This document shows positions 38,001 to 56,786 of a stretch of 64,000 nt of DNA, piece after piece. The stretch is taken from contig NZ_JABBWV010000001.1 of NCBI RefSeq assembly GCF_012999535.1, positions 1 through 64,000 on the forward strand, given 5' to 3'. Within the stretch, counting starts at the first letter, position 1; every line of letters starts with the position of its first letter. The stretch comes from Microbispora sp. H11081 (GTDB lineage: Bacteria > Actinomycetota > Actinomycetes > Streptosporangiales > Streptosporangiaceae). The position numbers and the translations under genes were made by a program. The notes under the pieces were generated by a model. The model was not told the DNA's origin. It saw nothing but the letters and a program-made list of their open reading frames with translations, and did no database searches.

Positions 38001-38251
38001 GGGCTTCTCCCACTCTCCGAGCTGTTCGCGTCGGCGCGGACAGCCGCGGATCCAGGGGTCCGCGGACGTGGCTTCGCGCTGCCGGGAGTCAATCCGGCAC
38101 GCCAGAGGCGAGTCAACGAGACGAGAGTGGCCGCTGCCGGCCCGCCACACGGGGAAACCCCTGGTGAACAGGTGATTCTGGCGGTACGCGAACCGGCCGG
38201 CCGCCGGGGCGGAGGTGAATCTTTCACCCGTTTCCGCCCCCAGTGCCCGGG

Positions 38252-40571: not shown

Positions 40572-40818
40572 GACGCCGCCCCCTCGGATTGGGTCGTCTC
40601 CGACTGGACCAAGCCCCTGCCACGTGTGGCCCGGGCGGCGCCCCCGCCGCGTCGCCGCCCCCACCCATGCCCGCGACGGGCGGCATTCGCCAGGCACTCC
40701 CCGGCCCTGACCCAAGGTCTCACCCGAAAGGGCGGTTGTCACCGGAGCAAAAACGTCACCTCGCGGATGTAGTCCTGGCGGGCGCGGGGCCCGGGCTCCG
40801 CCGTCCGGGGGCGGGGCC

Positions 40819-40824
40819 TATGGT
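40819..40824 (+). promoter_or_regulatory. Candidate -10 hexamer, leaderless ThuA-like transcript
   Basis: TATGGT fits TAnnnT and ends 7 bases before ATG 40832, with no ribosome site between. Confidence 0.35.
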
Positions 40825-40831
40825 GCTACTC

Positions 40832-41533
40832 ATGCCGCGCAACCTCATCCTGTCCGGGGGAGTGGCCCACGACTTCCCGGCCACCTCGGCCGCCCTCGCG
40901 GGCGTGCTCGCCGAGATCGGCGTCGAGTCGGAGATCACCGAGGACGTCGCCGGGGCCCTGGCCGAGCCGCCGCGGGCCGGTCTGGTCACCGTGAACGCGT
41001 TCCGCTGGAGGATGGACGGCGACGACTTCGCGGACGAGCGCGACCGCTGGCGCTTCGAGACGCCCGACTCCGTCAGGCAGGCGCTGCTCGCCCACCTCGC
41101 GGGAGGCGGCGGGCTGCTCGCCGTGCACACCGCGTCGCTCTGCTTCGACGACTGGCCCGAGTGGGCCGGGATCCTGGGCGGCGCCTGGAGATGGGGCGAG
41201 TCGTACCACCCGCCGATCGGCCCCGCGCGGGTCCGCCTCGGCGCCGGCCATCCGGTCGTCGACGGCCTGGACGGCTTCGAGGTGACCGACTTCGAGGTGA
41301 CCGACTTCGAGGTGACCGACTTCGAGGTGATCGACGAGGTCTACAGCGACCTCGACGTCCTGCCGGACGTGAAGCCGCTGGCGTACTCGGACGACCAGCC
41401 CCTGCTGTGGGCGCGGACCGTGGCGGGCGGCAGGGTCGTGTACGACGCGCTCGGCCACGACACCCGGTCGTACGAGAACCCGGTGCGCCGCACCCTGCTG
41501 CGGCGGGCGGCACGCTGGCTCCTCGGCGACTGA
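40832..41533 (+). CDS. ThuA-like (trehalose-utilisation fold) protein
   Basis: A 233-residue protein with the ThuA/glutamine-amidotransferase-like fold: NLILSGGVAHDFPATSAALAGVL at the N-terminus, LAHLAGGGGLLAVHTASLCFDDWPEW (about 86-111) and WARTVAGGRVVYDALGHDTRS near the end. ThuA proteins take part in sugar metabolism, for example conversion of 3-keto-sugars, but the exact role varies. An in-frame 15-bp repeat gives FEVTD three times and then FEVID (about 149-168) in a surface loop. ATG 40832 follows a -10-like TATGGT at leaderless spacing. It converges on the SIS gene, so it may share substrate chemistry with the sugar kinase and isomerase next to it, though not their promoter. Confidence 0.8.
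   Translation: MPRNLILSGGVAHDFPATSAALAGVLAEIGVESEITEDVAGALAEPPRAGLVTVNAFRWRMDGDDFADERDRWRFETPDSVRQALLAHLAGGGGLLAVHTASLCFDDWPEWAGILGGAWRWGESYHPPIGPARVRLGAGHPVVDGLDGFEVTDFEVTDFEVTDFEVIDEVYSDLDVLPDVKPLAYSDDQPLLWARTVAGGRVVYDALGHDTRSYENPVRRTLLRRAARWLLGD
41276..41335. repeat. In-frame 15-bp repeats in the ThuA-like gene
   Basis: TTCGAGGTGACCGAC is repeated at 41276, 41291 and 41306, with a fourth copy at 41321 differing by one base (ATC for ACC). The copies are almost identical at nucleotide level, so the expansion is recent. It adds Phe-Glu-Val-Thr-Asp units to the protein. Confidence 0.95.
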
Positions 41534-41561: not shown

Positions 41562-42527
41562 TCACGGGGCCGCGCGTCCCCAGAGCGTCGCGGCGACGAG
41601 CTCGGGCACCAGCGTCTCGGTGAGCAGGGCGACGTCCTGGTCGTCGTCGTGCAGGTAGCGCACCGCCGCCTCCTGTCCCTCGACCTCCCCGCCGACGGCG
41701 AGCACCCGCGACCCCCTGAGCTTGATCCACTCCATCGCCTGGGCGTCGTAGCGCGACCCAGGGAACAGCACGGCCCGGTAGTCGCGGGTCTTGGTGAGAT
41801 AGACGTCCACGTGCGCCCAGTCGCCGGTCTCGCACGCGTCGGCCTGGCGGCGCGGTCCCTCGCGGAACATCAGCGCGGACTGCTCGGCGGACGACAGCCG
41901 CTCGGCGGGCGCGATCGTGTAGACGCCGTCCGGGCCGTCGAGCAGCGTCACGGCGTCGGCCAGCCACTCCCGCCGCCGCTCCAGCAGGTCTGCGGAGGCC
42001 TGCGCGGCCCGCCGTACGAGGCCGGCCACGGCCCCGGGGCCCGCGGCGAGCGTGAGCAGGAGGGCGAGCGTGTGCTGGAAGGTCCGGCAGGCGACGCCGC
42101 CCCGTTCCTCGCCCGCGAGCATCGGCACGACGAGGTCGGCGCCCTCGGTCACGGGGGAGCCGGGCCGGTTGGTCAGCGCCACGACGAAGGACCTGCCCCG
42201 GTGCCGGGCCAGGGCGTCGAGCGTCTCCACGCTGCCGCCCGTGGCCGAGACGACGACGGCGGCCGTACGAGGGCCGGGCGGGGTGGCGAGCGCGGCGGAG
42301 GCGTACTCCGCCACGGCGTCCACCCCCGCCGCCCGCAGCCGCTGGGCCGCCACCCCCGCCGCGTAGCGCGAACTGCCCATGCCGAGGAACACGACGCGGT
42401 CGAGCCGCCCGTCTGTCAGCCGGCCGGCCAGCCCCTCGAACGGGTCGCCGTCGTCCAGGCGGCCGGCCAGCGCGTCCAGCGCGTCCGGCTTGGCCTCCAG
42501 ATCGGCAAGGAAGAGCCCCGCGTCCAC
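41562..42527 (-). CDS. SIS-domain sugar isomerase/deaminase-like protein
   Basis: The 321-residue protein contains two SIS (sugar isomerase) subdomains like the isomerase half of GlmS and the AgaS/FrlB-type deglycases. Landmarks are RVVFLGMGSSRYAAGVAAQRL (about 44-64), VVVSATGGSVETLDAL (about 90-105), TNRPGSPVTEGADLVVPM (about 118-135) and ETGDWAHVDVYL (about 235). Members isomerise or deaminate amino-sugar phosphates or split fructosyl-amine phosphates. GTG 42527 has GAAGGAGAAG just upstream. It follows the APH-fold kinase by 22 bases on the same strand, so kinase then isomerase is a natural order: phosphorylate an amino sugar or sugar-amine conjugate, then convert it. Confidence 0.85.
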   Translation of the reverse strand: MDAGLFLADLEAKPDALDALAGRLDDGDPFEGLAGRLTDGRLDRVVFLGMGSSRYAAGVAAQRLRAAGVDAVAEYASAALATPPGPRTAAVVVSATGGSVETLDALARHRGRSFVVALTNRPGSPVTEGADLVVPMLAGEERGGVACRTFQHTLALLLTLAAGPGAVAGLVRRAAQASADLLERRREWLADAVTLLDGPDGVYTIAPAERLSSAEQSALMFREGPRRQADACETGDWAHVDVYLTKTRDYRAVLFPGSRYDAQAMEWIKLRGSRVLAVGGEVEGQEAAVRYLHDDDQDVALLTETLVPELVAATLWGRAAP

Positions 42528-42549
42528 GTCCTTCTCCTTCGCGATGTCC

Positions 42550-43638
42550 TCAGGCGTACCAGGTCCGCAGCACGCCCATCGGCGCGTACCGCCAGCGCGG
42601 CAGGTGGCGTGCGGCGTAGATCAGTTCACGGCACTCCTGCTCGACCTCGAACGGCCGCAGCAGCGACCGGTCGAGCAGGTCGGCGCGCCCGGCCTCCGCG
42701 AGCGTCCGCGCGTAGGACTCCGCCAGGTCCCGGCGCGCCGCGGCGGCCCAGGCGGCCGTCGCGCCCCGGCCCGCGGACCTGCGCCTGACCGCCACCTGCC
42801 CCGCGTGGTCCACGCTGGTGGTGAGCTGCGCGAGGTCGCGGGCCGCGGGCTGGTACGGCTCGGCGCCCGCGACGGTGGGGTTGCCGTCGAAGTCGACCAC
42901 GGCGTAGCCGTCCCGCCAGCGCAGGATCTGCCCCACGTGCAGGTCGCCGTGGACGCGGATCAGCGGCGTGGCCGGGGCGGAGGCGAGAGGCGCCAGTTCG
43001 CCGCGCAGGGCCTCGGCCCGTCGCGCCAGCCACGTCCCGTCCTCGCCGTCCGTCAGCGCCACGGCCTCGCGCAGCGCCTCCTCGGCCCGCCCCAGCCAGG
43101 CCCCCGAGCCGGGCGGCGACAGCCGTACGGGGTCGGGGAGGACCGCGGACGGCGTGGCCATGGCGAGGTGCAGTTCGGCGGCGAGCGCGCCGATCTCGGC
43201 GGCGAAGCCGGTGCGGCCGGCCTCGGCCTCGTCGACGCACCACTCCCAGCCGTCCCGCGCCTCGGGCAGGTACGCCGTCACCAGGGCGACCAGCGCGTCC
43301 TCCCAGTAGACCGCCGCGTACGGCGTGGCCGTACGGGCGAACCCGGCCAGATGGGCGAGCAGCGCGGGCGCGGGGTGGGGGGCCCGCGACGGCCGGGGGA
43401 ACCACTTGACGACCACGGTCTCGCCCGCGACGACCGAGTGGTTGGTCTGGTCCACGGTGATCGGCCGCTCCCCCGGCGGCACGGGCGGCAGCGGCCGCAG
43501 CGTCCGCACCGAGAAGGGCGGCGGAACCGCTCCCCGCGCCAGGTCGCGCAGAACGCCCTCGGTGACGCCGTCGCGCGCCTCCAGCGAGAGGACGCCGTCC
43601 GGTCCCCCGGTCACCCGGGGCCAGCGGGAGCCTTCCAC
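42550..43638 (-). CDS. APH-fold sugar kinase (glucosamine kinase / maltokinase-like)
   Basis: A 362-residue kinase of the aminoglycoside-phosphotransferase fold, with an N-terminal cystatin-like region as in maltokinase-type enzymes. The ATP lysine is in VVVKWFPRPS, the catalytic loop is RVHGDLHVGQIL and the metal motif is VVDFDGNP. Actinobacterial proteins of this subgroup include glucosamine kinases that neighbour SIS genes, which fits the operon here. GTG 43638 is chosen over the TTG/TTG codons upstream because AGGAG lies 5 bases before it. The operator-like inverted repeat at 43647-43662 overlaps its ribosome-site region, so it should be tightly controlled together with the divergent importer. 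Substrate assignment is an inference from family and neighbours. Confidence 0.82.
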   Translation of the reverse strand: MEGSRWPRVTGGPDGVLSLEARDGVTEGVLRDLARGAVPPPFSVRTLRPLPPVPPGERPITVDQTNHSVVAGETVVVKWFPRPSRAPHPAPALLAHLAGFARTATPYAAVYWEDALVALVTAYLPEARDGWEWCVDEAEAGRTGFAAEIGALAAELHLAMATPSAVLPDPVRLSPPGSGAWLGRAEEALREAVALTDGEDGTWLARRAEALRGELAPLASAPATPLIRVHGDLHVGQILRWRDGYAVVDFDGNPTVAGAEPYQPAARDLAQLTTSVDHAGQVAVRRRSAGRGATAAWAAAARRDLAESYARTLAEAGRADLLDRSLLRPFEVEQECRELIYAARHLPRWRYAPMGVLRTWYA

Positions 43639-43646
43639 TCGATCTC

Positions 43647-43662
43647 CTGAACTCAGATTCAA
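43647..43662. promoter_or_regulatory. Shared operator candidate, copy 1 (kinase/importer divergent promoter)
   Basis: Read on the - strand this is TTGAATCTGAGTTCAG. The copy at 48256-48271 is TTGAATCTCGCTTCAA, identical at 12 of 16 positions including both arms (TTGAATCT and TTCA). It sits 9 bases upstream of the kinase start and about 100 upstream of the substrate-binding-protein gene. It is a probable site for the TetR protein encoded at 47550-48188. Confidence 0.55.
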
Positions 43663-43762
43663 CAAGGGAACGAAACGAGGAGGTAGAGGTAACGGGCAAA
43701 GTCTTGTCTACGTTGAGCCGTCCTGCAACACTGGCCGCCATCCTCACGCAAGGGAGCCCCCC

Positions 43763-44854
43763 ATGACTCGTCGCGTGCCCGCCGTCGTGGCCTCCGCCTG
43801 TCTGGCGTTCGCGGTGACCGCCTGCGGCGGAGGTTCGCCGGCCGACTCCGCGCCCGCGGCCCTCGACCCCAAGGCGGATCTGTCCAAACAGAGCCTGACG
43901 ATCTCGATCTGGGACGGTTACAGCCCGAAGGATCTTCCGGAGCGGGTGAAGGCCAAGCTCGGTTTCGACACCAAGGTCGCCATCCACGACACCAACGAGA
44001 CGATCGTGGCCAAGCTGACCGCCGGCGGCGACAGCGGCATCGACGTCGCGTTCGTGTCCGGCCAGTACGCGCAGGCGCTCAACGCGCAGGGCCTGTTGGA
44101 GCCCGTCCACCGGGAGCTGGTCCCGAACCTGAAGAACCTCTACCCCGAGGCGTCCCAGCTGGCCTACGACAAGGGGAACGCCTTCTCCGTGCCGTACACC
44201 TGGGGCACCACCGGGCTGTGCTACCGCAGCGACCTGGTGAAGACGCCGCCGACGAGCTGGAACGACCTGCTCGACCCGGCCCCCGAGCTGAAGAAGAAGA
44301 TCACGATGATGACCACCGAGCGGTGGCTGGCGCTGCCCGCGCTCAAGATGCTCGGCGCGTCGGTCAACACCACCGACCAGGCGGTGCTCGACAAGGCCAA
44401 GGCGATGCTGCTGAAGGTCAAGCCCGACCTGCTGGCCTACGACGACACCACGTTCGGCGACCGGCTCAAGTCCGGCGAGGCCGCCCTGGTCGAGGCGTGG
44501 GACGGCTGGTGCCCGACGGCGGAGAAGAACGTCGAGTTCGTCGTGCCCAAGGAGGGCAGCGACCTGTGGGCGGACACGATGGTGATCCTCAAGAGCTCGA
44601 AGAACAAGGAGGCGGCGCACGCCTTCGTCAACTACATCCTCGATCCCGAGGTCCACGGCTGGGTGGCCGCGAATATCCTCTACAAGATCCCCAACAAGGC
44701 GGCCATGGACGCCGTCGACCCGGAGCTGCTCAAGAGCTATCCGGCGCTGGCGCAGCCGCCGGCCGAGCTGCTCAAGGGTGAGAGCCTGGTCGACCTGGGC
44801 GAGGCGTCCACCGCGTACACGCGCCTGTCCACCGAGGTCTCGGCGGCCCAATGA
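43763..44854 (+). CDS. potD: ABC transporter substrate-binding lipoprotein (polyamine/PotD-like)
   Basis: This 363-residue lipoprotein has a signal peptide ending in the lipobox AVTAC (cysteine about 22) and a two-lobe binding fold of the spermidine/putrescine group (SLTISIWDGYSPKDLP, DVAFVSGQYAQAL, VPYTWGTTGLCYR, TTERWLALPALKMLG). It captures an extracellular ligand for the two permeases and ATPase that follow with overlapping starts. ATG 43763 has AAGGGAG upstream. The ligand is likely a polyamine or another cationic amine, but PotD-like proteins also bind opines, amino-sugar conjugates and thiamine-like compounds. The downstream amine oxidase and aldehyde dehydrogenase support an amine. 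Confidence 0.88.
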   Translation: MTRRVPAVVASACLAFAVTACGGGSPADSAPAALDPKADLSKQSLTISIWDGYSPKDLPERVKAKLGFDTKVAIHDTNETIVAKLTAGGDSGIDVAFVSGQYAQALNAQGLLEPVHRELVPNLKNLYPEASQLAYDKGNAFSVPYTWGTTGLCYRSDLVKTPPTSWNDLLDPAPELKKKITMMTTERWLALPALKMLGASVNTTDQAVLDKAKAMLLKVKPDLLAYDDTTFGDRLKSGEAALVEAWDGWCPTAEKNVEFVVPKEGSDLWADTMVILKSSKNKEAAHAFVNYILDPEVHGWVAANILYKIPNKAAMDAVDPELLKSYPALAQPPAELLKGESLVDLGEASTAYTRLSTEVSAAQ

Positions 44855-45717
44855 CGGCCCGACAGCCCGCCCGCGTTCTCGGGAAGGCGGCCGGGCGGCT
44901 CGCGACGATGGGGCCGGGGTTCGGCTTCCTGGCCGTCTTCCTGCTGGTCCCGCTGGCGCTGGTGCTGAGTTACACCGTGTTCCGGCGGGGCCGGTTCGGG
45001 GGAGTGGTCTACGAGCCGACGGGGGAGAACTTCGCCCGCCTCGCCGACCCGCTCTACCTCGACGTGGTGATCGGGTCGGTGAAGCTCGCGGCGATCACGA
45101 CGCTGCTCGCCCTGCTGCTCGGCTACCCGACGGCGTACCTGATCGCGAGGCTGCCCGCCCGGTGGAAGGTCGTCGCCCTGGTGGCGGTCGTGCTGCCGTT
45201 CTGGACGAACTTCCTCATCCGCACGTACGCCTGGATCGTGCTGCTCAACTCCGAGGGGCCCGTCAACTCGGGGCTGGAGGCGCTCGGGCTGGGGCCGGTG
45301 GAGCTGCTCTACACCGACGGCGCCATCGTCGCCGGGCTGCTCTACGCCTACCTTCCGCTGATGATCCTCCCGTTGTACTCGGCCGTGGAACGGCTGGACC
45401 CGGAGTTGCGGGAGGCCTCGGCGAACCTGGGCGCACGGCCGGCGAGGACGTTCTGGTCGGTCACGCTCCCGCTGTCGCTGCCCGGTGTGCTGACCGGCTG
45501 CGTGTTCGTGTTCGTGCCGAGCCTGGGCAACTTCGTGATTCCGGAACTGCTCGGCGGCGGGCGCCGGATCATGGTCGGAAACCTCGTCCGCGACCAGTTC
45601 CTCAAGGCCCGCGACTGGCCGTTCGGGTCGGTGCTGGCGCTGGCCGTGGTCGCCGTGCTCGTGGCGCTGCTGTTCGCCCAGGCGTGGGCCACGCGGAGGG
45701 CGGGTCGCGGTGCGTAG
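44851..45717 (+). CDS. potB: ABC transporter permease, PotB-like
   Basis: A 288-residue inner-membrane permease with about six helices and the ATPase-docking EAA loop REASANLGARPARTFWSVTLPLSLPG-like segment at about 189-214. It starts within the stop of the binding-protein gene (ATGA). Its last codons overlap the next permease by 8 bases, as is typical for equimolar subunits of one importer. Confidence 0.92.
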   Translation: MTARQPARVLGKAAGRLATMGPGFGFLAVFLLVPLALVLSYTVFRRGRFGGVVYEPTGENFARLADPLYLDVVIGSVKLAAITTLLALLLGYPTAYLIARLPARWKVVALVAVVLPFWTNFLIRTYAWIVLLNSEGPVNSGLEALGLGPVELLYTDGAIVAGLLYAYLPLMILPLYSAVERLDPELREASANLGARPARTFWSVTLPLSLPGVLTGCVFVFVPSLGNFVIPELLGGGRRIMVGNLVRDQFLKARDWPFGSVLALAVVAVLVALLFAQAWATRRAGRGA

Positions 45718-46483
45718 ACACGGCTGGCTCCGGCTGCCCTTCTGGCTGACCTACCTGTTCCTGTACGCGCCGATCGTCGTGCTCGTTGTGATGTCGTTCA
45801 ACCGGAACGAGTCGCCCTACTCGTGGGGCGGCTTCTCGCTGGACTGGTACGGCAGGCTGGCGGAGAACACCTCGATCCGCACCGGGCTGGTGAACACGCT
45901 GATCGTCGCCCTCGGTTCGACGGCGCTGTCCACGGTGCTCGGCACGCTGCTCGCGGTCGGCCTGGCCCGCCACACCCGCTCCCGGCTGCTCGACGCCCTC
46001 TCGACGCTGCCCGCGATCCTGCCCGACCTCGTCATCGCGATCGGGCTCCTGGTGTTCTACTCCGCGATCAAGCTGACGCTCGGGCTGCACTCCGTGCTGA
46101 TCGCGCACACCGTCTTCGGCATGGCCTTCGTCGCGGCCGTCGTCCGGGCCCGGCTCGGCGGCATGGACACGTCCCTGGAGGAGGCCTCCCGGGACCTCGG
46201 CGCTACCCCGCTGACGACGTTCGTGAAGATCACACTGCCCACGCTCGCCCCGGGCATCCTCGCGGGCGCGCTGCTCGCCTTCACGCTCTCGCTGGACGAG
46301 TTCGTGATCGCGTTCTTCACCGCGGCTCCGTCCGAGCCGACGCTGCCGATCGTCATCTACTCCATGGTGCGGTTCGGCGTGACCCCCGAGATCAACGCGC
46401 TGGCGACGCTGCTGCTCGCGGTGAGCTTCACCGTCGTGATCGTCGCGCAGCGCCTGACCAGACTGACCGAGGCCCTGCGATGA
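45710..46483 (+). CDS. potC: ABC transporter permease, PotC-like
   Basis: The 257-residue second permease has about six helices and an EAA loop (EEASRDLGATPLTTFVKITL, about 156-175). GTG 45710 lies inside the preceding gene and the stop overlaps the ATPase start (ATGA). It pairs with the PotB-like subunit to form the channel. Confidence 0.92.
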   Translation: MRRHGWLRLPFWLTYLFLYAPIVVLVVMSFNRNESPYSWGGFSLDWYGRLAENTSIRTGLVNTLIVALGSTALSTVLGTLLAVGLARHTRSRLLDALSTLPAILPDLVIAIGLLVFYSAIKLTLGLHSVLIAHTVFGMAFVAAVVRARLGGMDTSLEEASRDLGATPLTTFVKITLPTLAPGILAGALLAFTLSLDEFVIAFFTAAPSEPTLPIVIYSMVRFGVTPEINALATLLLAVSFTVVIVAQRLTRLTEALR

Positions 46484-47529
46484 CTCTCATATCCATCGAC
46501 GGCGTGAGCCGCCGTTTCGGCGAGGTGACCGCGCTCGACTCGGTCGGCCTCGACATCCGGCAGGGTGAGTTCTTCGCCCTGCTGGGGCCGTCCGGCTGCG
46601 GGAAGACCACCCTGCTGCGGATCCTCGCCGGATTCGAGCAGCCGGACACCGGCTCGGTGCTCCTCGACGGGGCCGACCTGCTCGCGATCCCCGCGCACCG
46701 CCGCCCGGTCAACCTCATGTTCCAGTCGTACGCCCTGTTTCCGCACATGAGTGTGGAGAAGAACGTCGCGTACGGTCTGGAACGGGAGCGGCTGCCCCGC
46801 GCGGAGATCCGGGAGCGGGTCGGCGCCGTGCTGGAGACCGTCGGCCTTACCGCGCAGGCCCGCCGCAGGCCGCACGAGCTGTCGGGCGGGCAACGCCAGC
46901 GCGTCGCCCTGGCCAGGGCCGTCGTCAAGCGTCCCCGGCTGCTGCTGCTCGACGAGCCGCTGAGCGCCCTGGACAAGCAGGTCCGCTCGGAGATGCAGCT
47001 CGAACTCAAGCGGCTGCAGCACGAGGTCGGCATCACCTTCGTCGTGGTCACCCACGACCAGGAGGAGGCCATGTCGCTCGCCGACCGGATCGCGGTGATG
47101 AACGGCGGCCGGGTCGAGCAGGTGGACGCCCCCGAGGACCTCTACGAACGGCCGCGCACGCCCTTCGTGGCCGGCTTCATCGGGGCCAACAACCTCTTCA
47201 CCGGAAGGGTCACGGGCAAGGGCCTTGAGGTCGACGGGCTGGGTGTGCTCCCCGCGCCCGCGGGGAGCGAGCAGGGCGGGACGGCGATGCTCGCGGTGCG
47301 GCCGGAACGGATCCGCCTCGGCCCGGTCACGGCCGGCGAAGGGGTGCTGCGAGGCCGGGTCGTCGACGTCAGCTTCTACGGCGGCGTCTCCCACGTGGCG
47401 CTGAGCGTGCCCGGTCACGACCGCGCGGTGCTGGCGGCCACGCAGGGGCGGGCGAGGGTGGAGGCCGGCGCCGAGGTCGCCGTCTCCTGGGACGCCGACG
47501 ACGCCGCCCTCGTGACGCCGCCCCTGTGA
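46480..47529 (+). CDS. potA: ABC transporter ATPase, PotA-like
   Basis: This 349-residue ATPase has Walker A LLGPSGCGKTTLL (about 34-46), Q-loop MFQSYALFPH (about 81), signature LSGGQRQRVALARA (about 129), Walker B LLLLDEPLSALD and H-loop VVVTHDQEEAM. A C-terminal TOBE-like regulatory domain (about 240-349) is typical of the polyamine and sugar importer class. It is the last gene of the four-gene importer operon; the convergent TetR gene ends 20 bases further on. Confidence 0.94.
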   Translation: MTLISIDGVSRRFGEVTALDSVGLDIRQGEFFALLGPSGCGKTTLLRILAGFEQPDTGSVLLDGADLLAIPAHRRPVNLMFQSYALFPHMSVEKNVAYGLERERLPRAEIRERVGAVLETVGLTAQARRRPHELSGGQRQRVALARAVVKRPRLLLLDEPLSALDKQVRSEMQLELKRLQHEVGITFVVVTHDQEEAMSLADRIAVMNGGRVEQVDAPEDLYERPRTPFVAGFIGANNLFTGRVTGKGLEVDGLGVLPAPAGSEQGGTAMLAVRPERIRLGPVTAGEGVLRGRVVDVSFYGGVSHVALSVPGHDRAVLAATQGRARVEAGAEVAVSWDADDAALVTPPL

Positions 47530-47549
47530 GCCGCCCCAGCCCACGGAGG

Positions 47550-48188
47550 TCAGCGGCGATCGGCGGGCCTGAGGGGGTTGCCCGTGGCCAGGCGGGCGTA
47601 GTCGAGGATCAGCTCGACGGCCTTGTCCGGGTCGATCGAGTGGTGCCGGGCGACGATGCGGTAGCCGTACGCGTCCTCGAGAGCGACGAGGTTGCGGGCG
47701 ATGGTCTCGGAGTCCTGCGCCAGCGTGAAGACGCCGTGCGCGGCGCCCGTCTCCAGGATCGTCTGGTACATCGACACCTGCCGGTCGAACAGCGTGGTCA
47801 GCAGCGTCGCGTAGACGCGGTTGCGGCCGGCCGCGCCGCCGAGCTCGCACAGCAGCCTGACCCCCGTGTCGTCGGGGCCGTCGGGCAGGCCGGAGCGGAT
47901 CGTGACGATCAGCTTCTCCGCCGGGTCGGAGATGCCGCCGATCTTCTTCATCCGCCGCTCGTAGAAGCGCTCCATGCCGGCGTGGTGCGCCTCGATCAGC
48001 AGGTCGCGCAGGTCGGGGTAGTGATAGAGCACCGCGCCCGAGGTGAGCCCCGCCTCCTCGGCGATCTGGTTGAGGTGGACCCCCTCGGCGCCGTGCTGGA
48101 TCATCGCCCTGTGGGCCGCGTCGATGAGGTCGAGCCGCCGGTCCGCCTTGCTCTTGCGCTGTGTCGGCCTGCTCTCGCGCTGTGTCAT
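47550..48188 (-). CDS. TetR family regulator, probable controller of the amine/sugar block
   Basis: The 212-residue regulator has the helix-turn-helix VHLNQIAEEAGLTSGAVLYHYPDLRDLLIEAH (about 37-68) and a ligand domain with RSGLPDGPDDTGVRLLCELG. ATG 48188 is chosen because GAGGTG lies about 3 bases upstream; an ATG at 48203 has no ribosome site. The gene lies between the importer operon and the divergent glycosyltransferase/oxidase/dehydrogenase operon. Palindromic elements (48203-48219 and 48256-48271) lie in the divergent promoter region, and the latter is repeated before the importer and kinase genes. It probably represses all of them and responds to the imported compound or its product. 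Confidence 0.88.
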   Translation of the reverse strand: MTQRESRPTQRKSKADRRLDLIDAAHRAMIQHGAEGVHLNQIAEEAGLTSGAVLYHYPDLRDLLIEAHHAGMERFYERRMKKIGGISDPAEKLIVTIRSGLPDGPDDTGVRLLCELGGAAGRNRVYATLLTTLFDRQVSMYQTILETGAAHGVFTLAQDSETIARNLVALEDAYGYRIVARHHSIDPDKAVELILDYARLATGNPLRPADRR

Positions 48189-48202
48189 TGCACCTCGCTT
48201 CA

Positions 48203-48219
48203 TATCGTCCGACACGATA
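48203..48219. promoter_or_regulatory. Inverted repeat TATCGT-N5-ACGATA upstream of the TetR gene
   Basis: TATCGT (48203-48208) and ACGATA (48214-48219) are exact complements around CCGAC. It lies 15 bases before the TetR start and 74 before the glycosyltransferase start, in a position suited to autoregulation. Confidence 0.5.
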
Positions 48220-48255
48220 CCCCGCCAGGTCTTGACGGGTGTACAGGCAACGTAT

Positions 48256-48271
48256 TTGAATCTCGCTTCAA
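48256..48271. promoter_or_regulatory. Shared operator candidate, copy 2 (glycosyltransferase operon promoter)
   Basis: TTGAATCTCGCTTCAA is an inverted repeat (TTGAA-N6-TTCAA) 21 bases upstream of the glycosyltransferase start. It matches the element at 43647-43662 in TTGAATCT and TTCA. The nearby CTCGCTTCA at 48193-48201 may be a further half-site. Confidence 0.55.
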
Positions 48272-48292
48272 CTAGCACGCAAGGAGCGGCGA

Positions 48293-49582
48293 ATGACGGT
48301 CACGCCTTTGACGATCCTGTTCATGCCGGAGAGCGCCTACGGGCCGACGAACAACTGCATCGGGATCGGCGACGTGCTGCGCCGCCGCGGCCACCGCGTG
48401 GTGTTCGCCGCGGAGGCGTCGTGGAAGGGCAAGCTGGAGGCGCTGGGCTTCGAGGAGGACCTGGTCGACCTGGCGCCGCCGGCGCCCGAAGAACAGGACG
48501 CGACGGAGCAGGACGCGGGCCAGTTCTGGAAGGACTTCATCCGCGACACGGCGCCGGAGTACCGCAAGAGCACCCTGGACCAGCTGGAGACGGTCATCAA
48601 GCCGATCTGGGAGGCGCTCATCGACGGTGCCAAGTACTGCGAGCCGCAGCTCAAGGCCATCATCGAGCGGGTGCGGCCGGACGTGATCGTCGAGGACAAC
48701 GTGGTGGCCTTCCCCGCGCTGGTGACGGCGGGCGTGCCGTTCGTACGGATCGTGTCGTGCAACCCCCTGGAGGTGAAGGGCCCCGGGGTGGCGCCGCCCT
48801 TCTCCGGCCTGCCCGCGGACGGGACCGGCTGGGCGGAGTTCCGGTCCGAGTACGACCGGACCCACCGCGAGGTGTGGGAGGCGTTCAACGCGTGGGTGGT
48901 GGCGCAGGGCGCCCCGCCGCTGCCGGACCTGGAGTTCATCCACGAGGGCGACGCCAACCTGTACGTGTACCCCGAGATCGCGGACTACACGGCGGACCGG
49001 CCGCTGGACGCGTCGTGGACCCGGCTGGACTCGTCGGTCCGGGAGACCGACGGCGACTTCACCCTGCCCGACATCCCCGGCGACGGCGCGCTGATCTACT
49101 TCTCGCTGGGGTCGCTCGGCTCCGCCGACGTCGAGCTGATGCGCCGCGTGATCTCCGTGCTGGCCCGCACGCCGCACCGGTACGTCGTCTCCAAGGGCCC
49201 GCTGCACGAGGAGATCGAGCTGGCTCCCAACATGTGGGGGGCGGAGCTCGTCCCGCAGACGAAGATCCTGCCGCTGGTCGACCTGGTGATCACGCACGGC
49301 GGCAACAACACGACGACCGAGGCGTTCCACTTCGGCAAGCCCATGATCGTGATGCCGCTGTTCTGGGACCAGTACGACAACGCCCAGCGCGTGCACGAGA
49401 CCGGATACGGCGTCCGCCTCGACACCTACCGCTTCACCGACGACGAGCTGACCGGGGCGATCGAGAGGCTGCTGGCCGACCAGGGCCTGCGGGACCGGCT
49501 CGCGGCGGCGGGGGAGGAGATCCGCCGCCGCGACGGCCTGCGCGTGGCCGCCGACGTGATCGAGAGCACCGCGGCGAAATGA
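48293..49582 (+). CDS. GT1-type glycosyltransferase (UGT/MGT fold)
   Basis: This 429-residue GT-B glycosyltransferase resembles macrolide/UDP-glucuronosyl-type GT1 enzymes. The N-terminal half starts LTILFMPESAYGPTNNCIGIGDVLRRRGH (acceptor side). The C-terminal half has LIYFSLGSLGS (about 265) and the donor motif ITHGGNNTTTEAFHFGKPMIVMPLFWDQ-like region (about 330-357), with HGGNNTTTE as the nucleotide-sugar signature. It should glycosylate a small acceptor. It is first in an operon with an FAD amine oxidase (ATGA overlap) and an aldehyde dehydrogenase, an unusual partner for amine catabolism. AAGGAG lies upstream of ATG 48293. The acceptor may be the imported amine itself or a toxic intermediate. 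Confidence 0.88.
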   Translation: MTVTPLTILFMPESAYGPTNNCIGIGDVLRRRGHRVVFAAEASWKGKLEALGFEEDLVDLAPPAPEEQDATEQDAGQFWKDFIRDTAPEYRKSTLDQLETVIKPIWEALIDGAKYCEPQLKAIIERVRPDVIVEDNVVAFPALVTAGVPFVRIVSCNPLEVKGPGVAPPFSGLPADGTGWAEFRSEYDRTHREVWEAFNAWVVAQGAPPLPDLEFIHEGDANLYVYPEIADYTADRPLDASWTRLDSSVRETDGDFTLPDIPGDGALIYFSLGSLGSADVELMRRVISVLARTPHRYVVSKGPLHEEIELAPNMWGAELVPQTKILPLVDLVITHGGNNTTTEAFHFGKPMIVMPLFWDQYDNAQRVHETGYGVRLDTYRFTDDELTGAIERLLADQGLRDRLAAAGEEIRRRDGLRVAADVIESTAAK

Positions 49583-50970
49583 GCAGGGACAGCCGCCTGA
49601 TCGAGGACGCCGCTCCCCGGGTGTTCTGGACCGACAGGCCAGGGGCGCCCGGCCCCTACGAGCCGCTGCGCGGCCGTACGACGGCGGACCTGCTGGTGGT
49701 CGGCGGCGGCTTCACCGGCCTGTGGGCCGCCGTGCTGGCCAAGGAGGAGAACCCCGCCTGCGACGTCGTCCTCGTGGAGAGCCGCTCCGTCGCGTACGGC
49801 GCGAGCGGGCGCAATGGCGGTTTCGTCTCCGACTCGCTGACCCACGGACTCGGCCAGGGGACCCGCCTGTGGCCGTCGGAGAACGCTGCGCTGCTCGCGT
49901 TGGGACGGGAGAACCTCGCGGCCATCGCCCGCTTCGCCGACGCTCACGGCATCGACGCCGACCTGCGCCTCGTCGGCAAGACCACCGTCGCGGTCGCGCC
50001 GCACCAGGTGGAGGAGCTGAGGCGGGCGGAGAAGCTGCACCGCGAGCACGGCGAGGACGCGGTGTTCCTCGACCGCGACGAGATGCGCGCCGACGTCGAA
50101 TCGCTCACCTACCTCGCCGGGCTGCGCCTGCGCGGCACCGGCGGCCTCCTCGACCCCGCCGGGCTCGCGTGGGGCCTGGCCCGCGTCGCCTCGCGGCTCG
50201 GGGTGCGCGTCCACGAGGGCACCGAGGTCACCGCGCTGACCCGGACGCGGACCGGCGTGGAGGCCCGTACGGGAGGCGGTGGCGTGGTGAGCGCCGGGCA
50301 GGTGCTGCTGGCCACCAACGCCTTTCCCTCGCCCCTGCGCAGGCTGGGCCTGTTCGTGCTGCCGGTCTGGGACTACGTGCTCGTCACCGAGCCGCTGTCG
50401 CCCGAGCAGCGAGCGTCGCTCCGGTGGCGGGAGGGCCAGGGCCTGACCGACGCGGGCAACCGGTTCCACTACTACCGGCTCACCCGTGACGACCGCGTCC
50501 TGTGGGGCGGGTACGACGCGATCTACAACTTCGGCGGCGGGGGATCGGAGCAGCGTGACGCCACGCACCGACGGCTGGCCAGGCACTTCTTCGCGACGTT
50601 CCCGCAGCTGCGCGGCCTGCGCTTCACCCACAGGTGGGGCGGGGCGATCGACTCGACCAGCCGGTTCACCCCGTTCTTCGGCACCGCGATGGGCGGGCGG
50701 CTCGCCTACGCGCTCGGATACACCGGCCTCGGCGTCGGCGCGTCCAGGTTCGGCGCGCTGACCGCCCTCGACCTGCTGGCCCGGCGGTCCACCGCGCGGA
50801 CGCGGCTGCGCATGGTCCGCCGCCACCCGGTGCCGTTCCCGCCCGAGCCGCTGCGCTGGCCCGTGGTGCAGCTCACCCGCCGCGAACTCGCCCGGGCCGA
50901 CCAGAACGACGGCCGCCGGGGGCCCTGGCTGCGCTCGCTCGACCGTTTCGGCATCGGCTTCGACAGCTGA
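49579..50970 (+). CDS. FAD-dependent amine oxidoreductase (PuuB/DAO family)
   Basis: The 463-residue flavoenzyme has the dinucleotide motif LLVVGGGFTGLWAAVLA (about 38-54), VESRSVAYGASGRNGGF (about 67-83) and a C-terminal RWGGAIDSTSRFTPFFG, GYTGLGVGASRFGA block typical of gamma-glutamylputrescine oxidase and related D-amino-acid-oxidase-fold enzymes. It should oxidise a primary or secondary amine to an imine, giving an aldehyde plus amine or ammonia. Its start overlaps the glycosyltransferase stop by four bases, so the two are translationally coupled. The aldehyde dehydrogenase 10 bases later is the natural next step. No glutamylpolyamine ligase gene is nearby, so the substrate may be a free or glycosylated amine. 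Confidence 0.88.
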   Translation: MSRDSRLIEDAAPRVFWTDRPGAPGPYEPLRGRTTADLLVVGGGFTGLWAAVLAKEENPACDVVLVESRSVAYGASGRNGGFVSDSLTHGLGQGTRLWPSENAALLALGRENLAAIARFADAHGIDADLRLVGKTTVAVAPHQVEELRRAEKLHREHGEDAVFLDRDEMRADVESLTYLAGLRLRGTGGLLDPAGLAWGLARVASRLGVRVHEGTEVTALTRTRTGVEARTGGGGVVSAGQVLLATNAFPSPLRRLGLFVLPVWDYVLVTEPLSPEQRASLRWREGQGLTDAGNRFHYYRLTRDDRVLWGGYDAIYNFGGGGSEQRDATHRRLARHFFATFPQLRGLRFTHRWGGAIDSTSRFTPFFGTAMGGRLAYALGYTGLGVGASRFGALTALDLLARRSTARTRLRMVRRHPVPFPPEPLRWPVVQLTRRELARADQNDGRRGPWLRSLDRFGIGFDS

Positions 50971-50980
50971 GGACGACCTC

Positions 50981-52378
50981 ATGACGACATTGATCAATCC
51001 CGCCGACGGCCGGATCATCGAGGAGGTGCCCGACACCCCACTCGACGGGGTGGCGCTAGCCGTACGCGCGGCCCGGGCCGCCTTCGAGCAGTGGCGCGAG
51101 ACCACGCCGGGGGAGCGGGCGCTGGTGCTGCTGCGCCTGGCGGACCTCGTCGAGCGCGACGCCGGCGAGCTGACCAGGCTGGAGGTCGAGGAGACCGGCA
51201 AGCCCGCCGCCGTGTTCCGGGACGGCGAGCTGCCTTTCGCCGTCGACAACCTCCGGTTCTTCGCAGGCGCCGCCAGGTCGCTGGACGGCACGGGCGCCGG
51301 CGTGTTCAGCGCCGGATACACGTCCGTGCTGATCAGGCGGCCGATCGGGGTGGTGGGTGCGATCGCGCCGTGGAACTTCCCGTTCATCATGGCGGTCTGG
51401 AAGATCGGCCCGGCCGTCGCCGCGGGCAACGCCGTCGTCATCAAACCGGCCCCGCGGACGCCCCGCACCACGCTGCGGCTCGCCGAACTGTTCGCCGAGG
51501 CCGGGGCCCCGGAGGGCCTCGTACGGGTCGTGACCGGCGGCGCGGACGTGGGCAGGGCCCTGGTGACCGACCCCGGCGTGGACATGGTCAGCGTCACCGG
51601 ATCGACGGCCACCGGCAAGGAGGTCATGCGCGGCGCGGTGGACGGCCTCAAGCGGGTCCATCTGGAGCTGGGCGGCAAGGCCCCCGCGCTCGTCTTCGCC
51701 GACGCCTCGCTCGAGGACATGGCGGCCGGGGTCGTCATGGGCGCCACCTACAACACCGGCCAGGACTGCACGGCCGCGACCAGGGTGTACGTCGAGAGGT
51801 CGCGGTACGCCGAGGCGGTCGAGGCGCTGCGCGCGGCCGTCGCGCGGGTCAGGCCCGGCGACCCGTGGGCGGCGGACTCCGACATCGGACCGCTGATCAG
51901 CGCCGAGCACCGCGACCGGGTCCACGGCTTCGTGACCCGGGCGTCCGGCCGCGTCGTCCACGGGGGCGGGCCGATCGACGGCCCCGGCTTCCACTACACG
52001 CCGACGCTGATCGCCGACGCCGACCCGGCGAGCGAGATCGTGCGCAGCGAGGTCTTCGGCCCGGTGCTGGTGGCGATGCCGTTCGACGGGGAGGACGAGG
52101 CGGTGCGGCTCGCCAACGCCACGCCGTACGGGCTGGCCTCGTCGGTGTGGTCCTCGGACGTGGGCCGCGCGCTGCGGGTCTCCCATCGGCTCGACGTGGG
52201 GGTGACGTGGGTGAACGACCACCTGCCGATCGCCTCGGAGGCCCCGCACGGCGGCGTCAAGGGCAGCGGGTTCGGCAAGGACATGAGCCAGGAGGCCGTG
52301 CTGGAGTATTCGGTCACCAGGCATCTCATGATCAAGCACGCGGCTCCGCAGGCGCGCGACTCGTTCCGCCCGGCCTGA
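50981..52378 (+). CDS. Aldehyde dehydrogenase (aminoaldehyde / semialdehyde type)
   Basis: A 465-residue NAD(P)-dependent dehydrogenase with IAPWNFPFIMAVWKI (about 126-140), cofactor loop SVTGSTATGKEV (about 203), glutamate in HLELGGKAP (about 229), the nucleophile in NTGQDCTAATR (about 263) and EVFGPVL. This branch oxidises gamma-aminobutyraldehyde and related aminoaldehydes or succinate semialdehyde. It would convert the aldehyde released by the preceding amine oxidase to an acid. It is the last gene of the operon and converges on the AlkD-like gene. Confidence 0.9.
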   Translation: MTTLINPADGRIIEEVPDTPLDGVALAVRAARAAFEQWRETTPGERALVLLRLADLVERDAGELTRLEVEETGKPAAVFRDGELPFAVDNLRFFAGAARSLDGTGAGVFSAGYTSVLIRRPIGVVGAIAPWNFPFIMAVWKIGPAVAAGNAVVIKPAPRTPRTTLRLAELFAEAGAPEGLVRVVTGGADVGRALVTDPGVDMVSVTGSTATGKEVMRGAVDGLKRVHLELGGKAPALVFADASLEDMAAGVVMGATYNTGQDCTAATRVYVERSRYAEAVEALRAAVARVRPGDPWAADSDIGPLISAEHRDRVHGFVTRASGRVVHGGGPIDGPGFHYTPTLIADADPASEIVRSEVFGPVLVAMPFDGEDEAVRLANATPYGLASSVWSSDVGRALRVSHRLDVGVTWVNDHLPIASEAPHGGVKGSGFGKDMSQEAVLEYSVTRHLMIKHAAPQARDSFRPA

Positions 52379-55260: not shown

Positions 55261-55301
55261 AGATTGCGGGGCATGCCTGAGCGATGCCTTGTGGGCGCAG
55301 C

Positions 55302-56786
55302 ATGAAGCGAAGCCCTGACCTGCTCCGTTTGGCCGACGCGGTCCTGTTGCCCGGCTTCGCCGGGACCACCGCCCCCGACTGGGTGCGGCGGCGGCTTGCC
55401 GATGGGCTCGCCGGTGTTGTGCTGTTCTCCCGGAACGTCGACACCCCCGCCCAGCTCGCCGCGCTGACCTCGGCGCTGCGCGCGGAGAACCCCGACATCC
55501 TGATCGGCATCGACGAGGAGGCGGGGGAGGTGACGAGGCTCGAGGCCAGGACGGGCAGCTCGCGGCCGGGCAACTACGCGCTCGGTGTCGTGGACGACGT
55601 GGAGCTGACCGAGCGGGTGGCCCGCGACATCGGCCGCGACCTGCGGACCGCGGGAGTGAACATCGACTTCGCCCCGGCCGCCGACGTCAACTCCAACCCG
55701 GACAACCCGGTCATCGGCCTGCGTGCCTTCGGCGCCGACCCGCTGCTCGTCGCGCGGCACACGGCCGCCTGGATCCGGGGCCTGCAGTCCACCGGCGTGG
55801 CGGCCTGCGCCAAGCACTTCCCCGGGCACGGCGACACGTCGGTCGACTCCCACCACGGGGTGCCGCGCGTCACGGCGTCGCGTGCGGAGCTGGCCGAGGT
55901 CGAGCTGTTGCCCTTCCGGGTGGCCATCGACGAGGGGGTGCGCTCGATCATGACGGGCCACCTGCTGGTCACGGCGTACGACGAGGAACTGCCGGCCACG
56001 CTGAGCCCCCGGGTCCTCACCGGCCTGCTGCGCGAGGAGCTGGGCTTCGACGGACTGATCGTCACCGACGGGATCGAGATGGCCGCCGTCGCCGGCCGGT
56101 ACGGCCTGGGCGGCGCGAGCGCGATGGCCCTGGCCGCGGGGGCCGACGCGGTCTGCGTGGGCGGGGAGAACGCCGACGAGCGGGCCCACGAGCACATCCG
56201 CGACGCCGTCGCCGACGCGGTGACCGAGGGCGGGCTGTCGGAGGAGCGGCTCGCCGACGCCGCCGCGCGGGTGCGCGCGCTGACCGCCTGGCAGGCGCAG
56301 GCCCCGCCGCCGGACGGCCGCGGCGACGAGATCGGGCTCCTCGCCGCCCGCCGTGCCGTACGGGTGACCCTGCGCAGGGCCGGGGCGCTGCCGCTGGCCG
56401 GCGCCCCGCACGTGGTGGAGCTGGCGCCGGAGACCAACCTCGCGATCGACAAGGGCATGCCGTGGGGCGCGGGGGAGCCGCTCGGCACGCTGCTGCCCGG
56501 CACCACGGTCGCCCGGCTGCGGCAGGGCGACGTCCACAACGGCGTGGCGGGCACGGTGCTGAGCCGGGCCGCCGACCGGCCCCTCGTCATCGTGGTCCGG
56601 GACGCCCACCGCCACCCATGGCAGCTGGACCTGCTGGAGCGCCTGCTGGCCGCCCGGCCGGACGGCGTCGTGGTCGAGATGGGACTGCCGGGCCGTACGG
56701 ACCTGGGGGCGGTCCACATCGCCACGCACGGCGCCGCCCGGGTGTGCGGCCAGGCCGCGGCGGAGGTGCTGGCCGGCCTCGGCTGA
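55302..56786 (+). CDS. Glycoside hydrolase family 3, NagZ-like beta-N-acetylhexosaminidase
   Basis: The 494-residue protein has a GH3 TIM barrel with GVVLFSRNV (about 37), IGIDEEAGEVTRLE (about 69), the NagZ loop CAKHFPGHGDTSVDSHHGVP (about 168-187; His/Asp acid-base dyad) and the nucleophile aspartate in LIVTDGIEMAAV (about 252). It then has a shorter C-terminal domain beyond classical NagZ (about 340). It removes beta-N-acetylglucosamine from peptidoglycan or chitin fragments, probably in the cytoplasm since no signal peptide is seen. The start is uncertain: ATG 55302 gives MKRSPDLL, ATG 55284 adds six residues. The inverted-repeat operator upstream suggests sugar-responsive control. Confidence 0.88.
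   Translation: MKRSPDLLRLADAVLLPGFAGTTAPDWVRRRLADGLAGVVLFSRNVDTPAQLAALTSALRAENPDILIGIDEEAGEVTRLEARTGSSRPGNYALGVVDDVELTERVARDIGRDLRTAGVNIDFAPAADVNSNPDNPVIGLRAFGADPLLVARHTAAWIRGLQSTGVAACAKHFPGHGDTSVDSHHGVPRVTASRAELAEVELLPFRVAIDEGVRSIMTGHLLVTAYDEELPATLSPRVLTGLLREELGFDGLIVTDGIEMAAVAGRYGLGGASAMALAAGADAVCVGGENADERAHEHIRDAVADAVTEGGLSEERLADAAARVRALTAWQAQAPPPDGRGDEIGLLAARRAVRVTLRRAGALPLAGAPHVVELAPETNLAIDKGMPWGAGEPLGTLLPGTTVARLRQGDVHNGVAGTVLSRAADRPLVIVVRDAHRHPWQLDLLERLLAARPDGVVVEMGLPGRTDLGAVHIATHGAARVCGQAAAEVLAGLG

Follow-up and report, generated by a model that had tools for sequence, protein, structure and literature searches.

A putative TetR regulon in Microbispora links genes for amine uptake and oxidation to a glycosyltransferase, a sugar kinase and a SIS-domain enzyme

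Why do genes for a PotDBCA-type importer, an amine oxidase and an aldehyde dehydrogenase (ALDH) share a locus with genes for a glycosyltransferase (GT), a sugar kinase and a SIS-domain enzyme? The question is raised by a 64-kb stretch of the 7.38-Mb genome of Microbispora sp. H11081, which we searched and here call the window. The gene set and its coordinates agreed with the original prediction for this DNA, with SIS and kinase genes on the minus strand, potDBCA on the plus strand, a tetR gene on the minus strand, and GT, oxidase and ALDH genes on the plus strand (Table 1). Judging from sequence comparisons, the importer, GT, kinase, SIS enzyme, oxidase and ALDH very likely form one regulon. 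We consider it probable that this TetR-controlled regulon serves the uptake and breakdown (or detoxification) of an amine and includes an arm for sugar conjugation and the dismantling of an amino sugar.

The proposal of a common operator started from two elements in the window (43647-43662, minus strand, and 48256-48271, plus strand) said to share 12 of 16 bases. They do so, and both are copies of a 5-6-5 palindrome, TTGAA-N6-TTCAA. Allowing up to 2 mismatches, TTGAATCTNNNTTCA occurred four times in the window compared with 0.18 expected; these comprise two exact copies, the opposite-strand reading of the palindrome, and a copy with 2 mismatches (48188-48202). The exact core TTGAAN6TTCAA is present as a single copy in the whole genome, which is operator 2, and the core with one mismatch was found at 16 places (including the kinase site) versus 9 for a reversed control pattern. 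Because the control comes this close, genome-wide rarity is weak evidence and conservation is the real test, which the operator passed. The kinase start, read by eye from an AGGAG site, is probably GTG 43638 and not TTG 43665, so that operator 1 would sit just 5′ of the ribosome-binding site. Also by eye, the potD promoter appeared as a conserved block separate from operator 1, with TGCAACACT in 15/15 and AGTCTTG in 14/15 selected printed regions, and TTGAC precedes operator 2 by 17-18 nt in the window and does so in 14 of the 17 relatives printed. A conserved TTGCAG...TCAA element lies 66 nt away from operator 1; it resembled a second operator at first but reads as the potD promoter in potD orientation.

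To follow the operator across relatives, we scanned species genomes for the kinase and named the best 80 of 99 loci by kinase similarity. These named loci, which we assign to Streptosporangiaceae and Micromonosporaceae with Microbispora as the nearest, come mostly from one family and are related, so their counts are not independent. An operator was called when at least 9 of the 10 core bases matched, in regions with a readable neighbour gene, and 20 dinucleotide shuffles of each promoter region served as control. We found the operator in 65/68 regions between tetR and the GT gene, 5/5 between tetR and the oxidase gene, 57/58 between the kinase gene and potD, 10/10 between the kinase gene and potB, and 4/7 between the kinase gene and tetR; shuffled regions attained the operator score in 0 to 1% of cases. 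The scan for co-occurrence and motif that the original prediction had proposed thus found the motif in orthologous promoters. In the three kinase-tetR misses (L040, L106, L108), the kinase gene closely follows or overlaps tetR and the site is on the GT side only, the two genes being so close that a second promoter is unneeded. Stretches between kinase and GT genes within one operon had the operator in 1/31 cases, as expected. Hence, the transcription units share a conserved palindromic operator, as in a TetR regulon, and this conservation is weaker outside the family.

Genomes with a split cluster provided a natural experiment. In one genus (g14; G029 and G101), the kinase-SIS, potBCA, tetR, oxidase and ALDH genes are together and potD-GT lies on another contig. 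The Acrocarpospora cluster is split in the same way, with the half lacking potD-GT in L049-L053. The unlinked potD-GT of both groups carried the operator in 4/4 cases, with 9 of 10 core bases. In five Microtetraspora-type genomes, potD is alone on another contig (L171, L172, L174-L176), and in each of them a perfect operator precedes it by about 150 bp. Overall, the operator accompanied relocated potD or potD-GT in 9/10 cases (the miss is L173), so motif and cluster membership nearly always travel together. Conservation at both promoters and at the relocated genes supports the predicted single operator for the whole set and makes a single regulon very likely.

The Microtetraspora PotA (L041:6133-8184) has 683 residues and thus exceeds the window PotA by about 340; the long stretch separating its ABC domain from its TOBE domain has no Pfam match. 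The idea of a solute-binding protein fused into this PotA was not upheld; Pfam shows ABC and TOBE domains only, and potD is located elsewhere with an operator.

We next consider how constant the gene set is. Kinase, SIS, GT, TetR, ALDH and potABC genes occur together in 59 of the 80 named loci, 15 of which also have the oxidase gene; 11 of the 80 are short owing to contig ends. We also compared wider samples. In the kinase count at the order level, 66 of the 154 genomes with a match were set aside, as their matches were all of a weaker, maltokinase-like kind (E above 1e-32). An order-level sample of 200 genomes contained kinase and GT in 87, kinase alone in 1, GT alone in 6 and neither in 106 genomes; the corresponding numbers in a class-level sample of 394 genomes were 50, 1, 7 and 336. 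The lone kinase genome is in both samples G032, in which the contig ends inside the GT gene (L033), and two of the class-sample genomes with GT only (G423 and G534) carry weaker kinase matches beside the GT gene. Hence, GT and kinase co-occur near-obligately. A PotD type with an altered ligand site, described below, is present in 81 of the 200 order-sample genomes and in 30 class-sample genomes, 27 of the latter with kinase at the cut-off used and 28 with GT. Apart from the family of Microbispora, 12 families of the class sample have the kinase, and in five of them it adjoins pot genes. Outside the family, at least three pot genes lie beside the kinase gene in 11/36 kinase loci, and the gene order usually differs, GT, kinase and SIS genes forming one operon with potD divergent. 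A kinase-SIS pair with no link to the importer had been named as a finding that would speak against the original prediction. This was seen in part, as pot genes are absent in 12/80 named loci (3 at a contig edge; L042 has relocated pot genes) and this PotD type is missing from 24 of the 36 kinase genomes of other families, yet it was always accompanied by the kinase in the order sample (81/81). The counts therefore identify GT-kinase-SIS as the core and the amine module as a frequent, not universal, partner.

What could such a regulon act on? Residues of PotD, GT, kinase and SIS enzyme were counted in predicted open reading frames (ORFs) selected by length and identity, which leaves mis-called ORFs out of these counts. 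The window PotD keeps all five positions of the aromatic box of E. coli PotD (W34, Y37, W229, W255, Y293) and one of its four acids, E36, D168, E171 and D257 corresponding to G52, T185, W188 and D271; we take both sets to be ligand contacts. T185, W188, D228, W246, W249, D271 and Y307 are invariant in 78/78 PotD relatives. The altered site suggests an amine ligand with a neutral, perhaps sugar-like, far end, and its residues are compatible with either of the two activities first proposed for the locus, processing of an amino-sugar/amine conjugate or glycosylation of a toxic amine.

The GT also has a conserved peculiarity. GT1 UDP-glycosyltransferases (UGTs) typically have an N-terminal catalytic histidine, and at this site the window GT has proline (P18), as do 121/121 readable relatives. 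The C-terminal UDP-sugar motif (HGG..T.E...G.P....P...DQ) is present, and H335 to N339, E343, D359 and Q360 are kept in 122/122 relatives. The three solved relatives with displayed alignments have histidine where the window GT has proline; the nearest structures, UGT203A2 (7lvy) and UGT202A2 (6pnt), presumably from spider mites, read GH at the site (AFGHVNACIG, GPGHLNACLG) and the window GT reads GP. Spider-mite UGTs are considered to derive from bacteria; their donor may have been close to the His-less GT family or to a sister of it. Within the GT-kinase-SIS trio, the GT is the best conserved member, with 53-93% identity compared with 33-89% for the kinase. Its gene overlaps the oxidase gene by ATGA, which makes the translational coupling of the two, as originally proposed, plausible. 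The proline of the GT and the Thr/Trp change of PotD are two conserved oddities that would point to unusual chemistry. Tandem pairs of GT genes, 63-70% identical to the window GT, are present in L157, L158 and L159 (G018, G021, G107) without kinase, SIS or Pot operon; those in L157 and L159 lie, by eye, near dnaK- and clpB-like genes.

The kinase segment QECRELIYAARHLPRW matches the signature Q-x2-RE-x2-YA-x3-LP-x-W published for actinobacterial glucosamine kinases (PMC6520443; statements on this and the other two cited papers refer to the parts of their text covered here). The signature is complete in 91/105 predicted relatives. With 258.9 bits, the kinase scored below the 550-bit cut-off of the NCBIfam equivalog NF041273, and we therefore call it glucosamine-kinase-like and not the equivalog. 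Actinobacterial glucosamine kinases have a Km of 8 mM for glucosamine (PMC6520443), which leaves room for a better substrate. In the SIS enzyme, the catalytic Glu and His, 16 residues apart, are intact. We assume that this pair corresponds to E488/H504 of GlmS. Fold and residues of the SIS enzyme would fit C2-amino-sugar phosphates, and a reading as Amadori deglycase, in the manner of the fructosamine-6-P deglycases FrlB/FraB, appears weakened. Kinase and SIS enzyme together seem to point to a C2-amino sugar.

The oxidase had been called PuuB-type, which held at the level of the family and not beyond it, and the ALDH is nearest to gamma-aminobutyraldehyde dehydrogenases. All 18 searched genomes with an oxidase-less cluster have a full-length oxidase homologue (51-56% identity) elsewhere. 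In 7/7 genomes fetched, this homologue belongs to a canonical operon, ALDH-potA-potD-potB-potC-DAO. We rejected the idea that the oxidase has merely moved in the oxidase-less loci, as the homologue is a member of the canonical operon in the seven genomes fetched and the genome of Microbispora sp. H11081 holds both copies; the homologue might stand in for the missing oxidase. In the seven fetched stretches, matches to GT, kinase and SIS enzyme were absent, as was an operator next to the canonical operon; L181 has one motif copy 4 kb beyond it. In contrast to the window PotD with T/W, the canonical PotDs keep acids at the positions of E. coli D168/E171, as does the PotD of locus L162 (8/8, one with E171D). 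The TetR regulon seems to be a paralogue of the canonical operon with which actinobacteria import and oxidise polyamines, joined to the GT1-kinase-SIS trio.

Similar associations were found in other settings. At L162, one operon has the gene order ALDH-potA-potD-potB-potC-DAO-GT-agmatinase, and a class-III aminotransferase gene is divergent to it. The GT of this operon is 52% identical to the window GT; there is no kinase or SIS match at this locus. Since this GT lies beside a classical PotD, an altered PotD is no condition for the GT, and a GT acting on ordinary amines is favoured. In L112, L113, L115 and L129, the trio (only kinase-SIS in L129) lies beside genes for an AsnC regulator, a class-III aminotransferase and distant ALDHs (45-49%), and two of these loci also carry a PucR regulator; domain scans covered one representative of each kind of neighbour gene. 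Two 1.3-Mb genomes (L165, L166) have adjacent potABCD, GT, kinase-like (34-38%) and SIS genes, one of them with an ALDH gene as well.

On this basis, the following sequence of events can be proposed. Without ligand, TetR would bind TTGAAN6TTCAA at the GT and kinase promoters, and arrival of the amine or a product of it would release TetR from the DNA. The amine would be captured by the PotD-like protein and imported through PotBCA; instead of a second amine, its far end probably carries something neutral or flat, for example a sugar. The GT may then add a sugar to the compound or handle the sugar that it already has. Like PuuB and PuuC, the DAO-type enzyme would oxidise the amine, and the ALDH would turn the resulting aldehyde into an acid. 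Kinase and SIS enzyme would phosphorylate and then deaminate or isomerise the amino-sugar product, yielding fructose-6-phosphate and ammonia or amine. Substrate and step order are inferred here.

Several observations weigh against this proposal. The operator scored below 9/10 in eight tests at named loci (L040, L056, L069, L070, L073, L086, L106, L108), and L070 has GT, kinase and SIS genes without operator, TetR or ALDH. In L111-L150, mostly from other families, the operator was weaker (5/9 tetR-potD, 4/5 tetR-GT and 2/4 kinase-potD regions), the failures scoring 7 or 8, and G103 has a relocated potDBCA without operator (L173). The oxidase is missing in 60/80 named loci (a number that includes loci truncated at the end of a contig), minimal clusters have neither importer nor oxidase, and the genome of Microbispora sp. 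H11081 has a second DAO homologue too (55%, G000:C16:19306-20688). GT occurs without kinase in 6/200 and 7/394 genomes, three of which (G018, G021, G107) have the tandem GT pairs, and in one genome with the PotD type, G440, neither GT nor kinase reached the cut-offs. Of 105 predicted relatives, 14 show an incomplete kinase signature, some of which may be explained by mis-called ORFs. Finally, the GT of L162 adjoins a PotD with classical acids, and the cluster contains no glycosidase to free the amino sugar from a conjugate.

The sugar arm can be read in two ways, which we regard as about equally likely and each as tentative. First, the sugar could be a mask: the GT would N-glycosylate the amine, comparable to glutamylation by PuuA/GlnA3, oxidase and ALDH would act on the masked amine, and kinase and SIS enzyme would unmask it. 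The histidine absent from the GT is normally needed for O-glycosylation, and its loss suits a nucleophilic amine acceptor; together with the strong conservation of the GT, this appears to favour an enzyme that glycosylates a nucleophile, for instance an amine. The ATGA overlap with the oxidase gene and the position of the L162 GT, after a Pot-DAO set with classical-acid PotD and beside agmatinase, also favour a mask, and for this phylum the masking of amines by glutamylation is well documented (PMC8998196). Alternatively, the importer could take up a ready-made amino-sugar/amine conjugate (N-alkyl-glucosamine, Heyns-/Amadori-type or aminoglycoside-like), the kinase would phosphorylate the sugar, the SIS enzyme would free fructose-6-phosphate and the amine, and oxidase and ALDH would consume the amine. 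A PotD with Thr/Trp for two acids, one acid kept and an intact aromatic box is compatible with a ligand whose two ends are an amine and a sugar, the SIS catalytic pair is intact, and with the high Km glucosamine may be a stand-in substrate (PMC6520443). However, an imported conjugate leaves no clear job for the GT, and minimal clusters without importer and the L162 GT with its classical PotD speak against it.

We think it unlikely that the trio serves secondary metabolism, providing glucosamine-6-P for the DasR regulon or a natural-product sugar (PMC6520443), with the amine genes as unrelated neighbours. Published gene-cluster predictions in several actinobacteria (PMC6520443) and the trio-only loci among the 36 outside-family kinase genomes agree with such a role, but the operator is common to the trio and to unlinked potD and potD-GT loci, GT or trio are linked to amine-catabolic genes in other settings, and the pot, GT, kinase-like and SIS genes are adjacent in the two 1.3-Mb genomes. 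It is very improbable that two ordinary modules lie together by chance and share a motif by coincidence. The 16 one-mismatch sites against 9 in the reversed control could be cited for this reading, which we rejected on the conserved operator, the relocated operator-bearing genes and the rarity of the motif score among shuffles.

Table 1. Features of the amine-sugar locus in the Microbispora sp. H11081 window.
Feature	Position	Strand	Remark
SIS-domain enzyme, GlmS-isomerase / GlcN-6-P-deaminase-like	41562..42527	-	
Kinase, actinobacterial glucosamine-kinase kind	42550..43638	-	ORF opens at 43665; 6hwj glucosamine kinase E 7e-55
Operator 1, TTGAATCTGAGTTCAG	43647..43662	-	Directly 5′ of kinase ribosome-binding site
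Probable potD promoter, AAAGTCTTGTCTACGTTGAGCCGTCCTGCAACACT block	43697..43732	+	Promoter role inferred
PotD-like solute-binding protein, altered ligand site	43763..44854	+	E. coli PotD E 3e-40
PotB-like permease	44851..45717	+	
PotC-like permease	45710..46483	+	
PotA-like ATPase with TOBE domain	46480..47529	+	TIGR01187 363.7 bits, cut-off 355.6
TetR-family regulator, presumed repressor, ATG 48188	47550..48188	-	Pfam TetR_N; in 73/80 named loci
Probable -35 box TTGACG of GT operon	48232..48237	+	Predicted promoter
Operator 2, TTGAATCTCGCTTCAA	48256..48271	+	Overlaps presumed -10 region of GT promoter
GT1 (UGT/MGT-like) glycosyltransferase, Pro at catalytic-His site	48293..49582	+	Pfam UDPGT
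DAO-type FAD amine oxidase/dehydrogenase	49579..50970	+	
Aminobutyraldehyde-dehydrogenase-like ALDH	50981..52378	+	6c43 E 1.5e-130; NF010000 610.8 bits, cut-off 615

Other genes were noted around these features. A gene for a ThuA-family protein (window 40676-41533), convergent with the SIS gene, contains an in-frame repeat near 41270-41335 with three FEVTD and one FEVID in succession; it adjoins the SIS gene in few near relatives only (L031, L032, L033, L047). Outside the family, an acyl-CoA-ligase-like gene adjoins the SIS gene in L119, L120, L121, L128 and L138 (AMP-binding Pfam domain checked for L119). A GH3 glycosidase, perhaps of the beta-N-acetylglucosaminidase type, is encoded 3 kb past the ALDH gene (window 55284-56786), and by eye a gene whose product has a similar N-terminus lies near the cluster in L040 and L070. 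The protein encoded at window 36633-38150 has a CBM2 cellulose-binding domain and a C-terminal part that, by eye, resembles cutinase-type alpha/beta hydrolases.

How does the locus compare with known systems? The amine and sugar set had been proposed as new. This does not hold for the kinase-SIS-GT trio, as a tight association of kinase, SIS (AgaS/COG2222) and GT1 was reported by Manso et al. in 2019 (PMC6520443), with the same three families and the same kinase signature as in the window; the link to importer, oxidase and dehydrogenase does appear to be new. The published trio was described beside biosynthetic clusters, PGM and UDPGP, and links to secondary metabolism were proposed (PMC6520443). 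Neither an amine importer, an oxidase or an aldehyde dehydrogenase nor a TetR operator is mentioned with the trio in the covered part of that paper; in its main text, 'aldehyde' and 'oxidoreductase' have no occurrence and 'transporter' occurs once, in another context. Beyond this paper, a link between trio and amine module was not found in the open-licence PMC literature. According to its discoverers, evidence for a physiological role of the actinobacterial glucosamine kinase is lacking (PMC6520443). The regulon would tie the glucosamine-kinase family, its SIS partner and the GT1 to amine uptake and oxidation, and with the kinase gene beside pot genes in several families the question of its role becomes directly testable.

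The importer, oxidase and ALDH have close parallels. The canonical Streptomyces genes SCO5666-SCO5671 (ALDH, solute-binding protein, PotG/H/I-like, PuuB-like; PMC9397018) represent the same importer, oxidase and ALDH families. Five bacterial amine routes are described in the covered parts of PMC8998196 and PMC9397018, none of them with a sugar, and 'glycosyl' does not occur in the main text of the latter. If the sugar is a removable mask, the regulon would represent an amine route absent from those described there. The gamma-glutamylation route of Puu and GlnA3 (PMC8998196, PMC9397018) has the same outline, with importer, modifying enzyme, DAO oxidase, ALDH and repressor. Among the ten cluster proteins scanned, we found no glutamine-synthetase-like ligase (gamma-glutamylpolyamine synthetase) and no PuuD-like hydrolase; unlike Puu and GlnA3, the window cluster has GT1 and kinase-SIS as replacement. 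It is a possibility, though a doubtful one, that the sugar is a removable handle or mask, added by the His-less GT1 or imported as part of a conjugate, that PuuB/PuuC-like oxidation follows, and that kinase and SIS enzyme remove the sugar in the form of a sugar phosphate, all under one TetR. Such a route would stand beside glutamylation, transamination, direct oxidation, spermidine dehydrogenation and acetylation.

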